Assembly (NCBI GenBank): GCA_014384675.1
Contig: JACNFK010000017.1
Coordinates: forward strand, 1-56,084
Length of the DNA: 56,084 nt
Reading direction: 5' to 3'
DNA from: Candidatus Thiopontia autotrophica
Lineage (GTDB): Bacteria > Pseudomonadota > Gammaproteobacteria > GCF-002020875
In this document: positions 1 through 56,084 of the stretch, in pieces
Position numbering within the stretch: the stretch's first letter is position 1
How the letters are laid out: every line of letters begins with the position of its first letter
Notes under the pieces: generated by a model
What the model saw: the letters and a program-made list of their open reading frames with translations, nothing else
Databases searched by the model: none
Told to the model about the DNA's origin: nothing
Program-made: the position numbers and the translations under genes

Positions 1-66
1 ATGATCTATACCCATGTGCTGAATCAGGGTGGAAAGGGGGTTCAGAGCCCACTTGATAATCTATGA
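1..66 (+). CDS. intI: Integron integrase, C-terminal fragment (gene enters from the left edge)
   Basis: The first 21 codons of the window stay open in frame 1 and end at TGA (64-66). The peptide contains IYTHVLNQGGKGVQSPLD, the C-terminal signature of integron-type tyrosine recombinases. The Tyr of IYTHV is the catalytic nucleophile that attacks the DNA at attC or attI. Everything upstream (core-binding domain, catalytic Arg and HxxR residues, the IntI-specific insertion) lies outside the window. In known integrons attI and the first cassettes lie beyond the 5' end of intI, so here they would be to the left. The stop overlaps the priA start as ATGA. XerC and XerD share the IYTH motif, but the GGxGVxSPLD tail is specific to IntI. 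A separate xerC is present at 9192-10142. Confidence 0.85.
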   Translation: MIYTHVLNQGGKGVQSPLDNL

Positions 67-2249
67 TCCTCCGTATTGCGATCCTCTCTGTTCCTCTCAG
101 AAGAGCATTTGACTATCTTCCTCCGGCAGGTGGTTCAGTGGGTGGGTATCGTCCAGGTATTCGTGTCAAGGTTCCGTTCGGGAAACAACAGCGTATCGGT
201 ATTCTGCTGGAGACTACTGCGAAGTCCGATATTCCGGAAGAGAGGCTAAAGCCTGTCACAGAGATTATTGACTCCGCTCCCCTGCTGCCGGAGTCACTCC
301 ACTCTCTGCTGTTGAGGTCGGCCAGTTACTATCACCATGCAATTGGGGAGGTCTATGAGACGGCACTGCCTGTTCCGTTGCGACAGGGGAGGTATGCCAA
401 ACAGCCTGAACAGGTTATCTACCGTATTACTGAGAGGGGAATTCAGACAGATCTGGACTCACTAAGCCGTGCCCCTCGTCAACGTCAACTGCTGGAGCGG
501 TTGCAACAGGAGAGAGAGCTCTCTGGTTCCAGCACCTTTATGCGAGAGTTGATCAAGAAGGGGTTGGTAGTCAGAGAGAGCAGGGCAGGTTATAACCAAC
601 CACCAAAAGTTGAGTCCGATGCCCCGCATCAGCTCAATGGTGAGCAGCAGCAGGCGGTTGATGTGGTTCACAAACAGATGGACGGCGCAGGCAACGACCC
701 GATCCGGCCGGTTCTGCTGGAGGGGGTGACCGGTAGCGGCAAGACTGAGGTCTATCTACAGATCATCCAGAGGGTGATTGATGACGGCAGACAGGCTCTG
801 GTTCTGGTGCCGGAGATCTCTCTTACCCCACAGACTGTACAGAGATTCAGACAGCGTTTTGATCTGCCGATTGCACTGCTCCACTCCGGGCGCAACAGCA
901 GTGAGCGCCTGGGTGACTGGCTGGCGGCAAGGGCGGGGGAGGCAAAAATCGTTATCGGTACCCGCTCTGCGGTCTTTGTTCCACTACAATCTCCGGGGAT
1001 CATTATTGTGGATGAGGAGCATGACGGCTCCTTCAAGCAGCACGAGGGCTTTCGCTACTCTGCCAGGGATCTTGCTATTTTGCGCGGAAAGCAGGAGGGT
1101 ATACCTGTACTGCTGGGCAGTGCCACTCCATCATTCGAGAGCCTGCATAACGCCGAGTCCGGAAAATACCGGAAGCTGCTTCTCTCTAGCCGTGCCGGTG
1201 GCGCCAAGCCCCCGGAAATATCCCTGATTGATGTGCGCTCGAGAAAGATGGAACACCTGCTATCCGCTCCACTCATTGAAAAGATGAGAGAGCATCTTGA
1301 ACAGGATGGACAGATCCTTATTTTTCTCAACCGCAGGGGATATGCCCCAACTCTCTTCTGCAGAGGGTGTGGCTGGAGCTCGGCCTGTCCACGCTGTGAA
1401 ATTCACTACACATTTCATCAGAAAAAAAATCGGCTGGTATGCCACCATTGCGGCGGGGAACGGCCTCGACCACCCCACTGCCCTGAATGTGGCAGCCATG
1501 AATTAACCGATATTGGCGCAGGTACAGAGAGGATTGAGGAGGCGCTACAGAAAATATTCCCGGAACACTCTGTTGCCAGAATTGATCGTGACACCACCCG
1601 TAGGCGAGGATCGATGGATGAGAAGCTGCAACAGATCCATGCCGGGGATCACCAGATTCTATTGGGTACACAGATGCTGGCCAAGGGACACCACTTTCCA
1701 AAGGTAACTCTGGTTGCCATTCTGGATGCCGATAGCGGTCTGTTTGGCTCAGATTTTCGTGCAACCGAGCAGATGGGGCAGTTGATTACCCAGGTTGCAG
1801 GCCGTGCGGGGCGAGAATCAATGAGAGGTGAGGTTGCAATTCAGACCCACAACCCGGACCACCCACTGCTTCTTACCCTGTTACAGAGAGGGTATCCGGA
1901 TTTTGCAAAACAGGCCCTGGCTGAACGCAAACTGGCTGCACTTCCCCCATACAGCCATCTCACTCTGATTCGTGCAGAATCATCAAAGCCGCAGGCTGCC
2001 ATCCACTTTCTGCAACAGGTCAGGGAGATGGCTGTCGGTCATGCCATTTCTCAGGTCGAGATCCTCGGGCCTGTTCCATCCCCAATGGAGAAACGGGCCG
2101 GGCGCTATCGAGCACAGTTGCTGTTGCAATCATCGTATCGTAAACCACTGCATCAACTGCTGGCCCCACTGATCCCGGCAATTGAATCAACCAAAGAGGG
2201 GCGAAAAGTTCGCTGGTCTGTGGATGTGGACCCGATCGATATGTTTTAA
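63..2249 (+). CDS. priA: Primosomal protein N' (replication restart helicase PriA)
   Basis: PriA is the 3'-5' DNA helicase that recognises stalled or collapsed forks and reloads the replisome. The 728-residue product has the full family length. The N-terminal fork-binding domain starts at residue 1 (VPLRRAFDYLPP). Walker A GVTGSGKTE is at about 221-229 and DEEH at 317-320. A zinc-binding cluster inserted between the helicase lobes shows CRGCGWSSACPRC, CHHCG and CPEC (about residues 435-480), followed by helicase motifs V and VI (QVAGRAGR). The ATG at 63 matches the family N-terminus and overlaps the intI stop by 4 nt (ATGA). There is no strong Shine-Dalgarno sequence, so translation may be coupled to the integrase gene. 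A Na/Pi symporter gene follows after 3 bp. Confidence 0.97.
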   Translation: MILRIAILSVPLRRAFDYLPPAGGSVGGYRPGIRVKVPFGKQQRIGILLETTAKSDIPEERLKPVTEIIDSAPLLPESLHSLLLRSASYYHHAIGEVYETALPVPLRQGRYAKQPEQVIYRITERGIQTDLDSLSRAPRQRQLLERLQQERELSGSSTFMRELIKKGLVVRESRAGYNQPPKVESDAPHQLNGEQQQAVDVVHKQMDGAGNDPIRPVLLEGVTGSGKTEVYLQIIQRVIDDGRQALVLVPEISLTPQTVQRFRQRFDLPIALLHSGRNSSERLGDWLAARAGEAKIVIGTRSAVFVPLQSPGIIIVDEEHDGSFKQHEGFRYSARDLAILRGKQEGIPVLLGSATPSFESLHNAESGKYRKLLLSSRAGGAKPPEISLIDVRSRKMEHLLSAPLIEKMREHLEQDGQILIFLNRRGYAPTLFCRGCGWSSACPRCEIHYTFHQKKNRLVCHHCGGERPRPPHCPECGSHELTDIGAGTERIEEALQKIFPEHSVARIDRDTTRRRGSMDEKLQQIHAGDHQILLGTQMLAKGHHFPKVTLVAILDADSGLFGSDFRATEQMGQLITQVAGRAGRESMRGEVAIQTHNPDHPLLLTLLQRGYPDFAKQALAERKLAALPPYSHLTLIRAESSKPQAAIHFLQQVREMAVGHAISQVEILGPVPSPMEKRAGRYRAQLLLQSSYRKPLHQLLAPLIPAIESTKEGRKVRWSVDVDPIDMF

Positions 2250-10142: not shown

Positions 10143-10794
10143 AGTGACGTAGTGCCGTACTAACCAGCGATGCAAGCTGTACCAGGAAATGAGTCCCCAT
10201 CTTTTCGTGATAATACTGCTGGTCAGCACTCCCCAATGCTATCAACCCCTGCCCCCCAAACTCTCCGAGAGGCAGCAAGGCAACTGATGCGCCATGCTCC
10301 AAATCATCTCCAAAGATACTTTCACGCTGCTCTTCATCCAACTGACCGCAAAATGGGACACTGTCTTGAAGCAGTGACTCAAACAGTTTATGTGTCTGCT
10401 CATTTTCTGCATGTGGAAGCAGAATCACCACCTGCTCAATCCCAAAATGGTCCCGTAGACTCTCATACAGCGAGGCCACAATTCCATCACGACTCTCGCA
10501 ATTCAACAGCTCAAGAGTAAGACGATGCATGTTTTCACTAAGAGCATCATTTTCGCGCGCAACATGAATCAGGGTGTTGATCTCATTATTGAGACGGCCA
10601 TTTTCCTTTCTCAACTGCCCAACCTGGCGCTCAATCAGAGATACTGCAGCCCCACTTTGATGAGGCACATTAATCTTATTCAATAGCTCTGGATAGTCTA
10701 TAAAAAAGTCGTTATGTTGCTCTAGATAGGCAGCAACATCGTCACCGCTAACAGCATGAATCTCTTCATGACTAACTGATTCATGTTGACTCAT
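10123..10794 (-). CDS. DUF484 family protein (GAF-like fold)
   Basis: This 223-aa soluble protein belongs to DUF484, which is almost always located between dapF and xerC. The N-terminal half shows the family signature [19 protein letters not shown], followed by a helical or coiled segment rich in Arg/Asn/Glu (about 70-110). A GAF-like C-terminal domain includes [20 protein letters not shown] and the tail [18 protein letters not shown]. Its biochemical role is not known. The start codon overlaps the dapF stop by 4 nt, and its 3' end overlaps the xerC start, consistent with coupled translation. Confidence 0.9.
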
Positions 10795-11621
10795 AACTCA
10801 ATTACACCCTCAAATACTGTTTCTGCCGGCCCCGTCATCATAACTGGAGCATCACCACCCATCCATCTTACAGAGAGTTCTCCGCCTCTCAAACCAACCT
10901 TAACCTCACTGCTCAGCTTGCCCTGTACTATACCAGTTACAACTGCTGCACATGCACCGGTACCACAAGCCATGGTCTCTCCGGTGCCCCTCTCATACAC
11001 TCTCAGATGAATCTCTGAAGGGCTAACTACCCGCATGAAACCAACATTTACCCGCTGCGGGAAACGTTCATGTGACTCCAGTAGCGGCCCCAACCTATTA
11101 ACTGTCGCATCCTCCAGCTCATCAACGGCAAGTACCACATGTGGATTCCCCATGGATAGTACGCCCACCTTGAGAACATCACCATCTACCTCAATGTCAT
11201 ATGTGTCCGCCTGCTCATCAGCTACAAACGGGATATCTGATGGTGTAAGAATTGGAGGGCCCATATTAACTGTTACCCATCCATTATCCTGAAGCTTGAG
11301 TGTAATGATGCCACTGGCCGTCTCGACAACAATCTCGTCTTTATTGGTTAGCCCCTGGTCACGAACAAAACGGGCAAAACAGCGAGCACCATTCCCACAC
11401 TGCTCTACCTCTCCACCATCAGCATTCCAGATACGATACCGAAAATCAGCCCCCTCACTCTGTGCCGGCTCAACCAACAACAACTGATCACATCCGACCC
11501 CAAAATTACGATCTGCAAGAAAACGAACCTGCTCTGACGTTGGCTCAAAAGGCTCGCTGACCGCATTGATTACAACAAAATCATTGCCCAAACCGTGCAT
11601 TTTTGTAAAACGCAGTCTCAT
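10791..11621 (-). CDS. dapF: Diaminopimelate epimerase
   Basis: DapF interconverts LL- and meso-diaminopimelate, giving the cell-wall cross-link residue and the substrate for LysA. The enzyme is PLP-independent and uses two cysteines; both are present, in [14 protein letters not shown] and in [14 protein letters not shown]. The N-terminus [18 protein letters not shown] matches the family exactly and fixes the start. Length is 276 aa. It lies 12 bp downstream of lysA, so the last two lysine-pathway steps are produced together, and it overlaps the DUF484 gene by 4 nt. Confidence 0.98.
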
Positions 11622-11633
11622 CTCAGCCCCTCC

Positions 11634-12890
11634 TCAGAAACTATCTGGAATATGCTCACCAGCATATAGCGACTCAATGGTTTCTCGGTCTCTCACTACG
11701 ACGGCTCTCTCACCAGAGACCATCACCTCTGCAGCACGTGGACGAGAATTATAGGTTGAACTCATGACAAAACCATAAGCCCCGGATGACATTACTGCAA
11801 GCAGATCACCTGACTCCACATTCAGTTCACGATCCTTCCCCAGAAAGTCTCCAGTCTCACAGATCGGGCCCACAACATCATAGATACTCTTTTTACCAGA
11901 GGTGCGCTCCTCAACCGGTACGATATTCTGCCATGCACTATAGAGGGCTGGCCGAATCAGATCATTCATTGCTCCGTCCACAATACAGAAATTCTTCTCC
12001 TCACCCTCTTTTATAAATTCCACTTTGGTCAGCATCACCCCGCTATTTCCGACCATGGCCCGACCAGGCTCCATTATGATCTCAAGATCCCTGCCATCCA
12101 GTTTTTCTGTCACTGCTCTTACATAGGATTCAGGAGATGGTGGATTATCATGATTGTAGTCAATCCCCAGTCCACCACCCACATCGATATGGTGCAAGTT
12201 AATACCATCCTCACCAAGCTGATCTACCAGCAGCAACACTCGATCAAGCGCATCCTCAAATGGAGAGAGCTCTGTTAGCTGTGATCCAATATGGCAATCA
12301 ATACCCATAATTTTAAGATTAGACAGGGTTGCAGCAAGCCTATAGACCTCACGTGCATGATCGATAGTTATACCAAATTTATTGGACCGGAGCCCTGTTG
12401 AGATATATGGGTGAGTACCAGCATCCACATCAGGATTGACCCGCAATGATATTGGGGCACACATACCCATGTCACCAGCAACTCGATTTACCCGCTCCAG
12501 CTCTGCCTCAGACTCTATATTAAAGCAGAGAATACCTGCTTCCAGCGCCCGTTTAATCTCATCATCACGCTTTCCAACACCAGAAAACACCACTTTTCCG
12601 GCATCCCCACCAGCCTTTAATACACGCTCCAACTCTCCAACCGAGACAATATCGAAACCTGCACCCATGCTTGCCAGCAATGCCAATACCGCAAGGTTGG
12701 AGTTTGCCTTTACCGCAAAACAGACCAGATGCTCTTCACCATTAAATCCATTCTCAAATGCCTGCCACTGAGCACGAATTGCATTCTCGGAGTAGACAAA
12801 TAGTGGGGTACCATAATCTTCCGCAAGAGTTTTCATAGAGAGTGATTCTGCATAGAGAATACCCTCACGTTGTTCAAAAAATGAGTTCAT
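11634..12890 (-). CDS. lysA: Diaminopimelate decarboxylase
   Basis: LysA decarboxylates meso-diaminopimelate to L-lysine. It is a fold-type III PLP enzyme. The Schiff-base lysine is K61 in CFAVKANSNLAVL. Other family motifs are HIGSQLTELSPF, the phosphate-binding VDVGGGLGIDY, EPGRAMVGN, and the dimer-partner cysteine loop ICETGDFLG. The C-terminal GAYGFVMSSTYNSRPR closes the active site. Length 418 aa is typical. It follows the LptM-like lipoprotein gene by 8 bp. No lysine riboswitch is possible in that gap, so control must come from the promoter upstream of lptM or elsewhere. Confidence 0.98.
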   Translation of the reverse strand: MNSFFEQREGILYAESLSMKTLAEDYGTPLFVYSENAIRAQWQAFENGFNGEEHLVCFAVKANSNLAVLALLASMGAGFDIVSVGELERVLKAGGDAGKVVFSGVGKRDDEIKRALEAGILCFNIESEAELERVNRVAGDMGMCAPISLRVNPDVDAGTHPYISTGLRSNKFGITIDHAREVYRLAATLSNLKIMGIDCHIGSQLTELSPFEDALDRVLLLVDQLGEDGINLHHIDVGGGLGIDYNHDNPPSPESYVRAVTEKLDGRDLEIIMEPGRAMVGNSGVMLTKVEFIKEGEEKNFCIVDGAMNDLIRPALYSAWQNIVPVEERTSGKKSIYDVVGPICETGDFLGKDRELNVESGDLLAVMSSGAYGFVMSSTYNSRPRAAEVMVSGERAVVVRDRETIESLYAGEHIPDSF

Positions 12891-53637: not shown

Positions 53638-55689
53638 TTGCCTGCCGTCTCCACACTAAAGGGGGTTGGTCCTCAACTCTCGAAAAGATTAGAGAAGCTA
53701 CAGATACGTGAAGTAGCAGATCTACTGTTCCATCTTCCTCTTCGCTATCAGGACAAAACCAAAATAGCCCCAATCTCTTCACTGCAACCAGGTGATGAGA
53801 GATTAATTGAGGGGGTCATTCAGGGGTGTGCCGTACGTTTTGGCAAACGCCGCTCCCTGCTCTGCACAATTGCAGGCCAGAACAGCACTCTTACCATTCG
53901 TCTTTTCCATTTCAACAAACAACAACAGATAGCCCTGAAAGAGGGTACTTCTGTTCGCTGTTTTGGAGAGATACGCCGGGGCCCATCCGGGCTTGAAATG
54001 GTTCATCCGGAATACAGGATTATTCACCCAGACAGGCCTGCCCCTGAACTTGAAAAAAACCTGACCCCCATATACCCGGCAACCGATGGGGTTCGACAAC
54101 GTACCCTGCTCTCCATAACGACGCAGGCACTTGTACGAGCTCTCCCGTTGGTTGTAGAGCTACTACCGGATATTTCACCTCTACAACATATGCCATCGCT
54201 GCAGGTGGCTCTGCAGACGCTACATCGGCCCACCGCAGAGACTCTTGCGGCACTGCCGCTATGCCGTGAACGCATTGCCTTTGAAGAGCTTCTTGCCCAC
54301 CACTTAAGTCTTCAACAGCTACGTGGCCATTACAGACAAGATCATGCCTTCGCGCTATCAACAGAGAGAAGAGTGGTGGATAGTTTTATAGAACAGCTTC
54401 CATTCTCTCTGACAAATGCACAGCAACGTGCAATCAGTGAAATTTTTCTGGACTTGCAACAACCGCATCCCATGCAGCGGCTACTCCAGGGAGACGTAGG
54501 CTCTGGAAAAACCATTGTGGCCATCTGTGCCGCACTGCATGTAACCGAATCCGGATTTCAGACCGCTCTGATGGCACCAACAGAGCTATTGGCAAGACAA
54601 CACCACAACAACATCTGTAGCCTGTTAGAGCCACTGGATATATCTACAGGATTTCTCTCGGGCAGCATGAACACAAAGGATAGAGCTGAGGTTACTGACA
54701 AAGTGATTAGTGGCAAAACCTCAATTGTTGTGGGAACACATGCACTGTTCCAGAAAACTATTCAATTCAGAAACCTTGCACTAATCATCATTGATGAGCA
54801 GCATCGCTTTGGGGTTGGGCAGAGACAGGCCCTGCAACAGAAAGGTGTTGATGAGATCACCAGTCCTCATCAGCTAATCATGACCGCAACTCCAATCCCC
54901 CGCACCCTGGCCATGACCTTCTACGCGGATCTTGACAGCACTGTTATTGATGAGCTCCCGCCCGGACGTACTCCCATTAAAACTGTCACCATTCCTGAAT
55001 TCCGTCGAGACGAGGTGCTGGAACGGGTACATGCAAACTGCAAACAGGGCCGTCAGGCCTACTGGGTGTGCCCGCTTATAGAGGAGTCAGAGGTATTACA
55101 GTGCCAGGCAGCTTCGGAAAGCGCCAAAGAGATACAGCAGCGATTCCCCGACCTTTCAGTTGGGCTGGTACATGGGCGCATGCCGCCAGCTGAAAAAGAT
55201 AAGGTTATGGGTAACTTCCATAAAGGAGATGTGCATATTTTGGTAGCAACAACCGTTATCGAGGTTGGGGTAGATGTGCCCAATGCCAGCTTGATGATTA
55301 TCGAGAATGCTGAACGGCTAGGCCTATCCCAACTCCACCAACTCAGAGGAAGAGTAGGACGTGGGGCCATCGCCAGCAGCTGTCTGTTAATGTACCGAGC
55401 ACCCCTTAGTAAAATTGCGACAGAGCGACTACAGACAATTCGGGAAAGCAGTGATGGGTTTGAGATCGCGCGCAAAGACCTGGAGATGCGTGGGCCCGGA
55501 GAGCTTCTGGGACGACGACAAACCGGAACACCTCAACTACGCATGGCTGACCTGGTACGTGATCAACACCTGATTCCAATGGTAGAAGATATTGCCAGGC
55601 AGATGCTACAAAACAGCCCTCAGGACAAGATAACCAGACTGATTAAACGCTGGATTCCTGATGCAGAGCGGTATCGCTCGACTGGTTAA
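53638..55689 (+). CDS. recG: ATP-dependent DNA helicase RecG
   Basis: RecG remodels stalled forks and Holliday junctions. The 683-aa protein starts at TTG 53638 (MPAVSTLKGVGPQLSKRLE), the family N-terminus. The wedge/OB domain occupies about residues 60-160, Walker A QGDVGSGKTIVA about 282-291, and the DEQH box in LIIIDEQHRFGVGQRQAL. Motif VI is LHQLRGRVGRG. The C-terminal RWIPDAERYRSTG corresponds to the RWMPETERY ending of E. coli RecG, so the protein is complete. Its TAA stop (55687-55689) is immediately followed by the integron cassette boundary. Confidence 0.97.
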   Translation: MPAVSTLKGVGPQLSKRLEKLQIREVADLLFHLPLRYQDKTKIAPISSLQPGDERLIEGVIQGCAVRFGKRRSLLCTIAGQNSTLTIRLFHFNKQQQIALKEGTSVRCFGEIRRGPSGLEMVHPEYRIIHPDRPAPELEKNLTPIYPATDGVRQRTLLSITTQALVRALPLVVELLPDISPLQHMPSLQVALQTLHRPTAETLAALPLCRERIAFEELLAHHLSLQQLRGHYRQDHAFALSTERRVVDSFIEQLPFSLTNAQQRAISEIFLDLQQPHPMQRLLQGDVGSGKTIVAICAALHVTESGFQTALMAPTELLARQHHNNICSLLEPLDISTGFLSGSMNTKDRAEVTDKVISGKTSIVVGTHALFQKTIQFRNLALIIIDEQHRFGVGQRQALQQKGVDEITSPHQLIMTATPIPRTLAMTFYADLDSTVIDELPPGRTPIKTVTIPEFRRDEVLERVHANCKQGRQAYWVCPLIEESEVLQCQAASESAKEIQQRFPDLSVGLVHGRMPPAEKDKVMGNFHKGDVHILVATTVIEVGVDVPNASLMIIENAERLGLSQLHQLRGRVGRGAIASSCLLMYRAPLSKIATERLQTIRESSDGFEIARKDLEMRGPGELLGRRQTGTPQLRMADLVRDQHLIPMVEDIARQMLQNSPQDKITRLIKRWIPDAERYRSTG

Positions 55690-55771
55690 CGTCGCAAATC
55701 ACCGGCGGTAAAAGGGAGAGCGAGGAACGAGCGGCGCTTTTTGCTGTCCGTGTGAATTTGCCTTGTTAGGC
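55684..55771 (-). other. attC recombination site of an integron cassette
   Basis: Read on the minus strand this is an 88-bp imperfect inverted repeat with attC architecture: R'' GCCTAAC (55771-55765), L'' GCAAATTCAC, a central variable part, L' GTGATTTGC, and R' GTTAACC (55690-55684). R'' fits RYYYAAC exactly. L'' and L' are complementary apart from one extra base, the extrahelical base typical of attC. The R' core keeps the G/TT cut site. Its last four bases AACC differ from the RRRY consensus, as expected if they belong to the flanking recG end and not to a further cassette. Confidence 0.8.
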
Positions 55772-56022
55772 TATCGCGACCAATCGCTGACGTTCAAGTT
55801 TCCTCCAGAGACATCTGCCTGGCTGCCACCTGAACCACTGCAAATGATAACTTCTGTAGGATTGCTTAAAGCAATACAGCAGAATTTTCCATTATCTTGT
55901 TGGATATTGGTTGAGAGAAGACGTTTGCTATTCATTTGTTGCCATTCCTCCATGGTATTGTATAACTCTTTCATAGAATTACTTTCAAAATAGAGCAAGT
56001 TGTGTTTATTTGCGTCAATCAT
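55771..56022 (-). CDS. Cassette-encoded hypothetical protein
   Basis: An 83-aa product that I cannot assign. It starts MIDANKHNLLYFESNSMKEL at ATG 56022 with a strong GAGGAG site 7 nt upstream. The middle contains FCCIALSNPTEVIICSG, with a vicinal Cys pair, and the C-terminus is Gly/Ser/Asn-rich. No signal peptide or membrane helix is seen. The stop TAG (55771-55773) abuts the attC R'' box, as in most gene cassettes. Composition is more AT-rich than the neighbouring genes. Cassette products are often toxin-antitoxin, resistance or orphan proteins; nothing here picks one. A lone -10 (TATAAT) in the leader may give it its own weak promoter. Confidence 0.78.
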   Translation of the reverse strand: MIDANKHNLLYFESNSMKELYNTMEEWQQMNSKRLLSTNIQQDNGKFCCIALSNPTEVIICSGSGGSQADVSGGNLNVSDWSR

Positions 56023-56055
56023 GATTTCTCCTCAATTATCGTGAATCTTGTGTCT

Positions 56056-56061
56056 ATTATA
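56056..56061 (-). promoter_or_regulatory. Possible cassette-borne -10 element
   Basis: A perfect TATAAT on the minus strand lies 34 nt before the cassette ORF start. The -35 region falls on the GTTAGG of the recombination core and is a poor match, so promoter strength is uncertain. Confidence 0.4.
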
Positions 56062-56077
56062 ATCGTACGTTCGCTTT

Positions 56078-56084
56078 GCCTAAC
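56078..56084 (-). other. Core recombination site at the 5' edge of the cassette
   Basis: GTTAGGC on the minus strand (GCCTAAC on plus) fits the G/TTRRRY core consensus and matches the R'' box at 55765-55771. It is the last sequence of the window, so the attC or attI to which it belongs cannot be seen. Confidence 0.7.

Follow-up and report, generated by a model that had tools for sequence, protein, structure and literature searches.

The locus examined here raises the question of how an integron recombination site came to lie flush against the stop codon of recG, and whether the cassette that it closes was inserted there outside an integron. The window, which is the whole stretch of DNA analysed, is the complete contig G000:C17 (56084 nt) of a draft genome of 39 contigs and 1.58 Mb, in a bin that is 98.6% complete. 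Near its right end, recG (53638-55689, plus strand; NCBIfam RecG, 968 bits) finishes with the codons GGT TAA, the TAA occupying positions 55687-55689. As the initial annotation had maintained, the gene is intact: the frame is full, the C-terminal residues (RYRSTG) are similar to those of relatives, and in the alignment the protein stops at the same terminal residue as in the sister genomes G002-G005. The closest named relatives of this recG come from uncultured gammaproteobacteria of marine origin, which carry the labels Methylophaga sp. or Gammaproteobacteria. An Rfam match to Ysr141, antisense to recG (window 54425-54684, minus strand), reached 37 bits for a gathering score of 196 and is most likely just recG homology.

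The 88 bp from 55684 to 55771 are read on the minus strand as an attC site, on the basis of the fold, a covariance model and alignments to attCs of genome G140 and of a Desulfosarcina plasmid. On this strand the layout is GCCTAAC AAG GCAAATTCACACGG ... CCGGTGATTTGC GAC GTTAACC. It thus begins with an R'' box (55765-55771) that matches the RYYYAAC core consensus, continues with the L'' box (55748-55761), which was delimited by the fold and bears two of the extrahelical positions, and ends with the L' box (55694-55705), paired with L'' in the fold, and the R' box GTTAACC (55684-55690). The part owned by the cassette covers 55690-55771, and the six remaining positions, 55684-55689 (TTAACC on the minus strand), are the recG codons GGT TAA. 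Because its outer half is recG, the R' box at the junction misses GTTRRRY by one base, whereas the form expected in the excised circle, GTTAGGC, fits the consensus fully; the attribution of these outer bases to recG, and their deviation from the core, had been correctly recognized in the initial annotation.

The position of the crossover follows from the other end of the cassette. The final seven bases of the contig (56078-56084), taken on the minus strand, are GTTAGGC and complement R'' exactly; an exact heptamer of this kind has a chance probability of about 6e-5. Since this GTTAGGC is the cassette's own 5' core (G/TTAGGC), the TTAACC beyond the attC belongs to recG and not to the cassette, so that the G/TT crossover falls between 55689 and 55690, immediately 3' of the recG TAA, where it had been placed from the start. 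The cassette extends from 55690 to 56083, about 395 bp, with a G/TT crossover on both sides and one attC 3' of its ORF. This ORF (55771-56022, minus strand; 83 aa) is transcribed opposite to recG and its stop overlaps the attC edge. It is an orphan, as no relatives were found in plasmids, in viral contigs, in the genus or in 369 genomes of the class, nor in NCBIfam or PHROGs, and Pfam gave one meaningless weak match. The contig finishes on the base beside the upstream crossover. Such a break hints that different cells of the population carry different DNA upstream of the cassette, as would be the case for a live array, and draft assemblies do interrupt integrons in this manner (PMC9024848).

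When the bottom strand of the site (the plus strand of the window) was folded as DNA, R' and R'' were paired over 6 bp plus one more, the L boxes and the inner stem were paired, and the central spacers of 2 nt remained unpaired. The bases T55747, T55751 and A55755 are extrahelical and all lie on one arm of the hairpin, which is the structure that the initial annotation had anticipated. In place, with the recG half-core, the fold reaches -15.4 kcal/mol (z -1.57; 13 of 200 shuffles equally good), and it improves to -19.4 (z -2.87; 1 of 200 shuffles equally good) when that half-core is replaced by the TTAGGC of the cassette, which is how the site would read in the excised circle. The opposite strand, taken with short flanks, folded no better than shuffles. 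No terminator-like site was found, and a simple repeat search returned no second copy.

For the covariance model, attC candidates were gathered from other gammaproteobacteria, in arrays that adjoin intI; 28 of them were aligned, the site in the window being excluded, and served to train a structured model of 51 positions (R2). A sequence-only model (R1) was dropped, its automatic structure having zero pairs. The structured model gave a single match in the window, located exactly at 55684-55771 on the minus strand (22.1 bits, E 0.0024), and elsewhere 78 sites in 29 loci, mostly beside intI and nearly all in one orientation per array. An unfiltered run over 55000-56084 did not report the 88-nt attC, most likely because this length exceeds the search window of a 51-position model. 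Over the whole genome the E value of the same match is 0.066; the model alone is thus suggestive at genome scale, and anatomy and homology supply the remainder of the case. A naive motif scan was not significant alone, with 0.2-0.5 matches per shuffled window.

Homologous sites were found in several other replicons. In addition to its alignment with integron attCs of G140, the recG attC is 80% identical over 88 bp to a site on a plasmid of Desulfosarcina sp. BuS5, including AACGTCGCAAATCACCGGC and GTGAATTTGC, the plasmid site being identical from AACGTCGCAAATCACCGGC inwards; it lies between two ORFs, just 3' of one of them, and scores with the covariance model. A shorter match is located between ORFs on a Nitrosococcus halophilus plasmid, and the sister genome G001 holds a close relative sharing the AACAAGGCAATT/AATTGCGACGTTAGGC frame, with a fold z of -5.96. 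The exact attC stem was not found in viral contigs, nor similar DNA in phages. Taken together, the fold, the covariance match and the homologues bear out the attC announced by the initial annotation, coordinates included: 55684-55771 is a genuine attC ending a small mobile gene cassette. It shares with the attCs of chromosomal integrons (59-base elements) the R''/R' and L''/L' boxes, the unpaired central spacer, the extrahelical bases on one arm, the variable inner hairpin and a cassette ORF ending at R''. It differs from them in that the in-place R' half-core comes from recG. Its extrahelical bases T, T and A are spaced by three, in contrast with the efficient T-N6-G type (PMC3053210).

In relatives, the ridA-recG and spoT side of the gene is conserved and the downstream side is variable, the DNA 3' of recG being different in each of five genomes of the same genus. 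From their translations, we take the 3' neighbours to be an XRE-type regulator in G004, a PhoH-like gene in G002, a 731-aa ORF in G005, a REP-type transposase in G001 and other genes in G003. The same 88 bp behind recG in relatives without integrons would, according to the initial annotation, speak against a cassette; they are absent from this place in all five sister genomes, and the covariance model put an attC right behind recG in 0 of 99 recG loci. On this last count, the idea that the recG 3' end is a recurrent insertion hotspot was rejected. The 3' flanks of the relatives are all unrelated, none carries a cassette and none could be paired with this locus as an empty site; the upstream flank of the cassette lies beyond the contig end. 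In another gammaproteobacterial clade, intI recurs immediately 5' of recG and in the same orientation (loci L063, L066, L072, L104 and L019/L197, with about 26 bp between the genes in L197, together with the intI loci L166 and L167), and a short intI remnant lies behind recG in L129. In G004, three near-identical copies of CTAAGTAACTCTTAG are located 3' of recG (L137, about 100-260).

An integron integrase gene is present at the opposite end of the contig, where the initial annotation had missed it. Positions 1-66 (plus strand) encode its last 21 codons and TGA (TIGR02249 positions 295-315, E 6.7e-5), the gene being truncated by the contig start, and its stop overlaps, in an ATGA, the start of priA (63-2249, plus strand; Pfam PriA domains). 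In the sister contig G004:C1 (L142 160-1554), a complete intI of 465 codons precedes priA with the same overlap; its product has about 146 extra N-terminal residues. In both genomes, judging from this arrangement of the genes, intI is apparently co-expressed with priA, which encodes the replication restart helicase. The tail is the sole integrase gene detected in the genome and lies 56 kb from recG. No second intI was found in the 98.6% complete bin, the detected one being itself just a 21-codon stub, and no integrase lies on the recG side of the cassette over 55 kb, the other side being beyond the contig end.

The soundness of the contig was judged from gene order. The succession priA(+)..dsbA(-) cytc4(-) engB(+) polA(-), at 12-20 kb, recurs in G001 and in G049; in the latter, a single-contig genome, priA, the dsbA-engB-polA and hslUV-lysA genes and recG all lie inside 60 kb. 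Furthermore, the hslUV-xerC-DUF484-dapF-lysA block is kept within the genus, and priA is upstream of recG in L127. The only join without direct support is esterase-coaX (13.9-14.1 kb), unseen in five relatives; the two contig ends share no overlap. The conserved gene order speaks for a genuine 56-kb contig, and in a sound contig the recG cassette and intI-priA are two separate loci, not in cis with each other. Closing the contig as a circle through a recG-array-intI-priA integron was rejected on synteny and the lack of end overlap. In G004:C1 (L142, about 10700-12599), a repeat translating to SSPRVWGT/HPHGCGEH stands directly behind hslV, the contig ending inside it, and is probably a CRISPR array.

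The covariance model pointed to two further sites in the genome, on contigs C33 and C24, both with genome-wide E values >0.1; they are likely rather than proven cassette sites. On C33 (L233 1-1800), an array at the contig start consists of an attC, a SpoIIAA-like ORF and an attC-like element seen by eye, and is followed by a TlpA-like ORF and hydrogenase maturation genes. This array runs opposite to the one at recG, in the direction expected for a distal end of the intI-priA integron. On C24 (L234 2519-3073; 16.5-17.1 kb), an isolated cassette-like unit lies between genes for a cytochrome and a ferredoxin: it comprises an RDD-family ORF and, 3' of this ORF, an attC whose R' has decayed, and a possible cassette start, GTTCGGC, complements the R'' GCCGAAC. 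As no more than one intI fragment is visible, some of these cassettes, at the least, are outside the integron. The sister genome G001, in which intI was not found, has an attC near a contig end (G001:C43, L235 2624-2697); the neighbouring gene is oligopeptidase-like, and no intI separates the two.

Since the recG locus is separated by 56 kb of chromosome from the sole detected intI, an off-integron insertion is the most likely origin of the junction. We propose, with a probability of roughly 0.58, that the recG cassette, or cassettes, is an IntI-made insertion at a non-integron site, of the attG type and of the SALIN/CALIN class. The junction is read directly in the DNA; the enzyme would be an integron integrase that joined the attC, folded from its bottom strand, to the G/TT at the recG stop. 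A cut directly after the TAA would leave the whole reading frame of recG, which is indeed preserved, and an off-integron insertion of the attG type would leave behind one attC, or a small group of them, with no integrase. Secondary targets of integrases need little beyond GNT (PMC10127599), and insertion into attG sites has been described (PMC12901181). At recG the G/TT triplet, which agrees with a minimal GNT/GWT motif at the crossover, is formed by the C after the TAA. Of the 50 ORF ends listed for the window, 5 have such a C after a TAA, so that targets of this type are common. On the other side, the upstream flank and the number of cassettes lie beyond the contig end, and the GTTAACC core, one base from GTTRRRY, is compatible with a flank derived from attI. 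The initial annotation had left the choice between a secondary site and the distal end of an array: the former is favoured, and gene order in G001 and G049 argues that the locus is not the distal end of the intI-priA integron.

The contig break on the upstream crossover, with its hint of a live array, leads us to keep a second integron as a serious rival, though an unlikely one. A second integron, complete and chromosomal, would then end distally with this cassette, its attI and intI lying to the right of the contig end, and the recG flank would be the old outer half of its attI. The array orientation is that of a normal integron, with the distal end at recG and the proximal end outward; the contig breaks precisely at the upstream boundary of the cassette; several genomes of the class possess two or three intI, and the clade mentioned above has intI beside recG. 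In those relatives, however, intI is upstream of recG and not 3', and the region behind recG is free of both intI and attC in all five sister genomes. In addition, the distal core GTTAACC lacks the full GTTRRRY, and the 98.6% complete bin yields no further intI, although the one detected is a stub of 21 codons.

Distinctly improbable is a single integron spanning both contig ends (recG - array - attI - intI - priA), which would imply a false join in the middle of the contig. The orientations of the right-end array and of the left-end intI fit perfectly, and the esterase-coaX junction could be the place of such a join, but the distance and orientation of priA relative to dsbA-engB-polA are kept in G001 and G049, recG is within 60 kb in G049, the contig ends do not overlap, and C33 already supplies a correctly oriented distal end for intI-priA. 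That there is no attC at all, the site being a chance hairpin or a recG terminator, is very improbable indeed: in its favour, the fold in place surpasses shuffles only slightly and the motif scan by itself also matches shuffled DNA, but the covariance match falls on the exact coordinates, an attC homologue with the same stem exists across phyla, R'' and the 5' core are exactly complementary, the ORF stop abuts R'', the genome has an intI, and no terminator-like site is present.

The insertion at recG can be compared with known off-integron events. With SALIN/CALIN, i.e. single or clustered attCs without integrase (the SALIN definition being that of PMC12690207), it shares a cassette with no adjoining integrase, as seen on the assembled side only; by default, IntegronFinder 2 asks for two attCs (PMC9024848). 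As far as the accounts of secondary and attG insertions by Recchia and Hall 1995 and Loot et al. 2024 describe them, the same precise G/TT join is found outside an integron. Within the same limits of these accounts, the recG case differs from these insertions in being natural, chromosomal, at the stop codon of a core gene and in an uncultured lineage. A broader and quite doubtful extension would be that the priA-co-expressed integrase scatters cassettes, those of recG, C24 (RDD) and C33 being independent attG insertions, with stop codons as harmless landing sites, where a TAA followed by C would give a GTTA target, and with the chromosome acting as a dispersed integron.

The event itself is of a known kind: the object is an ordinary chromosomal integron cassette of an uncultured gammaproteobacterium, and its place is slightly unusual. 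It provides a clean natural cassette boundary at which the half-core of the host is still readable, in a lineage beyond the clinical and Vibrio models. If the cassette was inserted off an integron, the locus would support the view that isolated attC cassettes arise via insertion by an integrase and not only through integron decay, and that selection retains cassettes landed behind a stop codon.
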